NCBI GenBank assembly: GCA_021833625.1
Contig: JAKBEU010000001.1
Span: 124,001 to 188,000, forward strand
Source of the DNA: a bacterium
GTDB lineage: Bacteria > Patescibacteriota > Microgenomatia > UBA1406 > GWC2-37-13
Direction: 5' to 3'
DNA length: 64,000 bases
The position numbers and the translations under genes were made by a program. The stretch's first letter is position 1, and each line of letters begins with the position of its first letter. Below, in pieces: positions 28,893-30,412 of the stretch. A model generated the notes under the pieces. The model searched no databases. It saw only the letters and a program-made list of their open reading frames with translations, and was not told the origin of the DNA.

Positions 28893-30412
28893 AAGAGTTT
28901 GATCCTGGCTCAGGATGAATGCTAGCGGTGTGCCTGAGATATGCAAGTCGAGCGACCCATTTTTGCCGCAAGGTGAAAGTGGGAGCGGCGGACGGCTGAG
29001 TAATATATAGGAATTTGCCCCTAAGTGGAACATAGCTCCGGGAAACCGGAGGTAATATTTCATGGTCTTCACCTTTGGTGAAGTAAAGGCCTTTACCGGT
29101 CGCTAAGGGATGAGCCTGTATCCTATCAGGTAGTTGGTAGAGTAATAGCCTACCAAGCCTATGACGGGTAGCTGATCTGGGAGGATGATCAGCCAGAGGG
29201 GGACTGAGACACGGCCCCCACTCCTACGGGAGGCAGCAATCAGGAATAGTCGGCAATGGGCGAAAGCCTGACCGCGCGACACCGCGTGTAGGATGAAGGT
29301 CTAATCGATCGTAAACTACTGTTGGAGGGGAAGAAGATCTGCCGTAAGGCAGGTTTGACGGTACCCTCCGAGAAAGGAGCCGCTAACTGCGTGCCAGAAG
29401 CGTCGGTAATACGTGGGCTTCAAGCATTATCCGGTTTTATTGGGCGTAAAGGGTCGTGTAGGCGGTTTTATAAGGTATCTTTGAAAGCTCGATGCTTAAC
29501 ATCGAGTTGGGGATACGACTGTAATGACTAGAATTTCTTCAAGGGTAATCGGAACTCAGAGAGGAGTAGTGAAATGCGTTGATACTCTGGGGAACACCAA
29601 TGGCGAAGGCAGATTACTGGGAGGAAATTGACGCCGAGACACGAAAGCTAGGGGAGCGAAGCAGATTAGAGACCTGCGTAGTCCTAGCCCTAAACGAATG
29701 TCTGCTACCTGCATCTTCATTGTGCCGTAAGGTACGATAAGGTGTGGGAAAGGTAACCCGTTAAGCAGATCGCCTGGGGAGTACTGCCGCAAGGTTAAAA
29801 CTCAAAGGAATTGGCGGGGAGGCACACAACCAGTGGAACATGTGGTTTAATTTGATACAAACCAAAGAACCTCACCAAGTCTTGACATGCTAGCGTCCAG
29901 TTCTGTAGAAATATGGAATGTTCGCAAGAAGGCTAGCACAGGTGCTGCATGGCTGTCGTCAGCTCGTTCCGTGAGGAGTGCCCTTAAGTGGGACAACGAG
30001 CGCAACCCCCATCTTGTGTTAAAAATGTCACAAGAAACTGCTCCACCTTTGGTGGAGAGGAAGGAGGGGCAGACGTCAAGTCAGCATGGTCCTTATGACT
30101 TGGGCTACACACATGTTACAATGGAGGGGACAAAGAGTATAGCGACACTGCAAAGTGAAGCAAATCTCTTAAACCCATCCTCAGTGGGGATTGGGGTCTG
30201 AAACTCGACCCCATGAACACGGAATTGGTAGTAATCGCAGGTCAGTCACACTGCGGTGAATACGTTCTTGCCTCTTGCACACACCGCCCGTCAAGCCAAC
30301 AAAGTCGAGCATATCTGAACCTCGATTTATCGGGGGAGGATACGTTTGGCGATGGGGGTTAAGTCGTAACAAGGTATCCGTTCTGGAAGGAGCGGATGGA
30401 TCACCTCCTTTC
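28887..30412 (+). rRNA. rrs: 16S ribosomal RNA
   Basis: About 1,526 nt without introns. The 5' region contains AGAGTTTGATCCTGGCTCAG, helix 15 contains ACTCCTACGGGAGGCAGC, and the 3' end is GGATCACCTCCTTT with a complete anti-SD. Ends are placed by homology to E. coli, so they are uncertain by a few nucleotides. The 515F and 806R primer sites each carry three mismatches, and helix 18 shows covariation. No tRNA, 23S or 5S follows; the next gene is convergent galU. Open frames inside are chance. Confidence 0.98.

Follow-up and report, generated by a model that had tools for sequence, protein, structure and literature searches.

The 16S rRNA of an uncultured Candidatus Roizmanbacteria (Microgenomatia, Patescibacteria/CPR; genome of 1.10 Mb, 99.6% complete) differs from that of E. 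coli at both partners of several helix 18 base pairs, and we consider it highly probable that this is a working 16S whose 530 loop carries lineage-fixed, geometry-preserving compensatory substitutions, in a lineage freed from m7G527. This reading is the most economical because pairing is kept where the letters change and the unpaired functional letters are fixed.

Helix 18 in the sole 16S gene

We analysed a window of 64,000 nucleotides (the whole stretch of DNA under study, positions 124001-188000 of its contig) and assigned E. coli numbering by alignment to K-12 rrsB, which also supports the assignment of each helix position below. No second or truncated 16S copy was found in the genome.

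28758..28786, + strand: sigma-70-like promoter match TTGACA-17-TACAAT, ~100 bases upstream of the 16S gene (11/12 consensus letters; such sites in the region are not above chance)
28887..30411, + strand: 16S rRNA gene, full length, the only copy in the genome (RF00177, 1313.4 bits, model positions 1-1533 of 1533)
29376..29421, + strand: helix 18, the 530 stem-loop and pseudoknot (E. coli 500-545)
29379..29379, + strand: position 503, G, pairing with 542 (C-G in E. coli); an ordinary variable pair by alignment and class survey
29381..29381, + strand: position 505, C, pairing with 526 (G-C in E. coli); C-G in 29/29 aligned relatives
29398..29398, + strand: position 522, A, pairing with 527 (C-G in E. 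coli); A-U in 29/29 aligned relatives
29402..29402, + strand: position 526, G, partner of 505
29403..29403, + strand: position 527, U; RsmG, which usually makes m7G at this site, is absent here
29406..29406, + strand: G530, the universally conserved decoding nucleotide, unchanged
29418..29418, + strand: position 542, C, partner of 503
30294..30294, + strand: position 1409 in helix 44, A, pairing with 1491 (C-G in E. coli); nearly class-wide
30360..30360, + strand: position 1491 in helix 44, U, partner of 1409

Between positions 30412 and 64000 of the window there was no 23S, 5S or spacer tRNA close 3' of the 16S gene, and the rRNA genes look unlinked here. Separately, several bases present in K-12 are missing from the 16S gene of E. 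coli strain HS1496 (L091, annotated length 1527 bases), whose record is a complete genome; sequencing errors are the probable cause.

A preliminary description of this DNA had reported C-G for G-C at 505/526, A-U for C-G at 522/527 and G-C for C-G at 503/542, and the alignment bears out the letters and coordinates of all three. It had also called the three sites near-invariant, which is right for 505-526 and 522-527, judged on Pseudomonadota, and wrong for 503-542, where C-G, G-C, U-A and A-U are all common; the pair 513-538, G-U here and C-G in E. coli, is likewise variable. In the Pseudomonadota control, for which 73 of 269 genomes matched, G505-C526, G506-C525 and C522-G527 were present in every loop among the matches listed.

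By the alignment, the pseudoknot 505-507/524-526 can form with C-G, G-C and C-G pairs, and 521-522 can pair with 527-528 as G-C and A-U, while the unpaired positions 517-520 and 529-533, G530 included, are all identical to E. coli. Helix 18 of this genome could therefore fold, as far as its letters indicate, into the usual bacterial pseudoknot, which was reportedly described at 505-507/524-526 by Powers and Noller in 1991. It resembles that structure in its pairing potential, at all three pseudoknot pairs as well as both loop pairs, and in its unpaired loop letters, but differs in having C-G at 505-526, A-U at 522-527 and a position 527 that cannot be m7G. Elsewhere in the decoding region, C518, C519, A520, G529, G530, U531, C1054, A1196, C1402, A1408, A1492 and A1493 are standard, and 912-915 reads CAAA as in E. 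coli. The suggestion that the decoding centre has been rebuilt is thus overstated, as G530, C518, A1492, A1493 and others keep their standard letters and the changed bases form pairs among themselves.

Relatives and variation across Microgenomatia

A search of 84,980 species genomes (257 Gb) with the 19-base loop GTGCCAGAAGCGTCGGTAA gave matches in 53 contigs, which lay inside 16S genes in 50 cases, and nearly all of those with a name belonged to Ca. Roizmanbacteria or other Microgenomates. The remaining three (L008, L010 and L040) fell outside rRNA, close to the ~2 expected by chance for a 19-mer in 257 Gb, which rules out chance as the origin of the 16S matches. Within the window's own family, all 31 readable loops listed carried the swapped combination, so the objection foreseen in the preliminary description, that close relatives might have a standard loop, does not hold there; other genomes share the changes, which are fixed across the lineage. 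In the sister family f131 the same combination was present in three of four loops, the fourth having C505-G526 together with C522-G527.

These observations also bear on whether the swaps could be a sequencing or assembly error, a chimera, or the product of a decayed second 16S copy, an explanation which the relatives refute and for which we found nothing in favour. The genome has a single full-length 16S, both partners of each pair are swapped so that pairing is preserved, the two columns covary, and identical letters recur in relatives, among them single-contig genomes and assemblies made independently from many sites. That the changes are real, as originally claimed, is accordingly upheld.

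We then surveyed the class, with 219 loops listed from 218 Microgenomatia genomes in 35 families (two pattern listings joined and transcribed by hand). Position 522-527 was A-U in 123 loops and C-G in the other 96, so that all 219 were paired, against ~51% pairing expected if the columns were independent. At 505-526 we found U.C in 152, C-G in 35, C.U in 11, G.A in nine, U-A in six, A-U in five and G-C in one, so that most of Microgenomatia lack a Watson-Crick pair at this normally invariant site. Of the other pairs in the 219 loops, 506-525 was G-C (139), A-U (79) or A.C (1), 507-524 was always C-G, and 503-542 took all four Watson-Crick forms, as befits an ordinary stem pair. Mutual information in helix 18 was highest for four column pairs, namely 503-542, 522-527, 505-526 and 506-525. 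Families f131 and f5 each hold both 522-527 states, and in other Patescibacteria classes A522-U527 occurs in scattered families, with 505-526 and 506-525 varying too. Two genomes (G090 and G376) each showed two different 16S loops on separate contigs; either their bins are mixed or they have divergent rRNA copies.

On a maximum-likelihood tree of 84 16S sequences built with helix 18 masked, a quick search in which several deep forks are unsure, there were at least 11 state changes at 522-527, at least 15 at 505-526 and at least nine at 506-525. C505-G526 is a mark shared by families f1 and f131, in the window's order, and U505.C526 is the state in f132, their neighbour. The pair 505-526 probably passed from G-C through the U.C mismatch, which is still present in most of the class, to C-G in the window's order; a U.G intermediate at this pair was not seen among the loops surveyed, nor was any intermediate at 522-527. 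The combination of C505-G526 with A522-U527 was also found in three Paceibacteria-type loci (L017, L036 and L037), and it arose independently in those genomes. Since 505-526 is non-Watson-Crick in most members, the pair is not strictly needed in the class, and for this reason C-G there may reflect drift and not selection for pairing.

RsmG loss and drug response as possible alternative causes

RsmG normally makes m7G at position 527. In this genome RsmG was not found by either PF02527 or TIGR00138, with 13 of 14 control genomes positive in each search, which answers the proposed check on rsmG, and the statement that U527 cannot carry m7G is correct, the base being U. The RsmG-dependent m7G527 is accordingly lacking here; it is not needed for the fold and is missing in most CPR too. 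Conservation of rsmG has been reported as <10% in CPR versus >90% elsewhere (PMC12641178), and the present genome, in lacking it, is like >90% of CPR genomes in that study, which covers gene loss and helix lengths and in which a text search finds no mention of helix 18.

It could be proposed that RsmG loss directly drove G527U here, as a one-to-one pairing of enzyme loss and base change. The absence of RsmG from this genome agrees with this, as does G385, the sole class genome with a convincing RsmG (160 bits), which keeps C522-G527. Against it, 371 of 372 class genomes lack a convincing RsmG, among them genomes that keep the standard C522-G527, and 95 other C522-G527 class loops sit in genomes without convincing RsmG; the weaker class matches were partial and resembled other methyltransferases, and one that we opened (L058) had, by eye, a general SAM-methyltransferase pattern. 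U527 was found in none of the eight RsmG-positive genomes with a readable loop, and in a phylum sample it occurred in 0/7 RsmG-positive versus 13/99 RsmG-negative genomes, a difference that is not significant (p = 0.59), with most of the RsmG-negative genomes keeping G527. We therefore regard direct drive as very doubtful, and the coupling of the swap to rsmG loss implied in the preliminary description does not survive, G527 keepers being among the genomes that lack the enzyme. Loss of the enzyme would permit U527 and does not demand it, given how many RsmG-lacking members of the class retain G527. RsmG loss is an older background and not a matching change, and its role is at most permissive, which these counts are consistent with and do not demonstrate; as a permissive cause of the class-wide re-lettering it is plausible.

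A further alternative is that the decoding site has changed adaptively and that the swaps, together with A1409-U1491 and A966, alter fidelity or give intrinsic tolerance to aminoglycosides encountered by the organism in its community. We judge this to be quite unlikely. The changed positions do cluster at aminoglycoside-linked sites, namely 522, 526 and 527 in helix 18 and 1409-1491 in helix 44, a known aminoglycoside-site pair, and loss of m7G527 has been linked to streptomycin resistance in E. coli, of a low level only (PMC7550191). However, the S12 protein of this genome (L076) has TPKKPNSALRK and GRVKDLPGV intact with K42 and K87 standard, so that the matching S12 change looked for as a check is not seen at its two decoding loops. 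A1409-U1491 is A-U in nearly all Microgenomatia examined and has no link to the helix 18 state, and 522-527 flips among close relatives (f131 and f5), which is more like tolerated drift. Streptomycin touches the 530 region mainly via the backbone, so resistance is not to be assumed from the letters, and the swaps keep pairing. Known streptomycin-resistant rrs/rsmG mutants are drug-selected and carry single substitutions, or have lost the methylase with G527 kept. This genome is like them in involving the same nucleotides (522, 526 and 527) and an unmethylated 527, but here the change involves both partners and is an old, lineage-fixed state. It has neither a substitution at S12 K42 or K87 nor, at 522-527 or 912-915, a single change left unpaired, the pairs being kept.

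Among relatives, S12 does vary near the 530 loop, with K87 replaced by P (L064, L070 and L074) or R (L067) and P90 by S or A (L080 and L084). Some class members thus have K87P, K87R or a changed DLPG, without obvious link to loop type. Position 966 (window position 29857) is A, compared with G in E. coli, nearly class-wide, and the RsmD product m2G966 therefore cannot be made.

Compensated change and its consequences

Compensated change at the paired positions remains the reading we prefer, and its steps may have been as follows. RsmG would have been lost before these lineages diversified, and with it the need for a methylatable G527. In small, fast-evolving genomes, one-sided pair mutations could then have become fixed together with compensating ones, and the compensation would keep the pseudoknot geometry, the S12 contacts and decoding by G530. 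The expected outcome would be a conventionally decoding ribosome with an unmethylated, differently lettered helix 18.

The helix 18 swaps fall in the 515F primer site, giving three mismatches, which are likely one cause of Roizmanbacteria and kin being missed in 515F-based surveys. Poor coverage of Microgenomates/CPR by universal 16S primers has been published (PMC5644168, PMC12577380), and the passages on mismatches there take them as a shortcoming of the primers, not as covariation of paired bases. We found no description of helix 18 base-pair swaps in CPR in the openly licensed literature. Loss of rsmG in CPR and poor primer coverage are thus already known, and the helix 18 swaps are real, lineage-wide and conservative in mechanism.

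More broadly, Microgenomatia might possess a co-evolved decoding site (505-526 reversed or missing, A522-U527, an unmethylated 527, A1409-U1491 and A966) whose fidelity and aminoglycoside sensitivity differ measurably, an idea that we put forward tentatively and think unlikely. If true, it would mean that in the absence of RsmG the letters of the 530 loop can be exchanged and the loop still functions. This loop is generally regarded as nearly untouchable, and with the repeated, class-wide replacement of its pseudoknot and loop pairs, nature has in effect carried out mutagenesis of the decoding centre in Microgenomatia.
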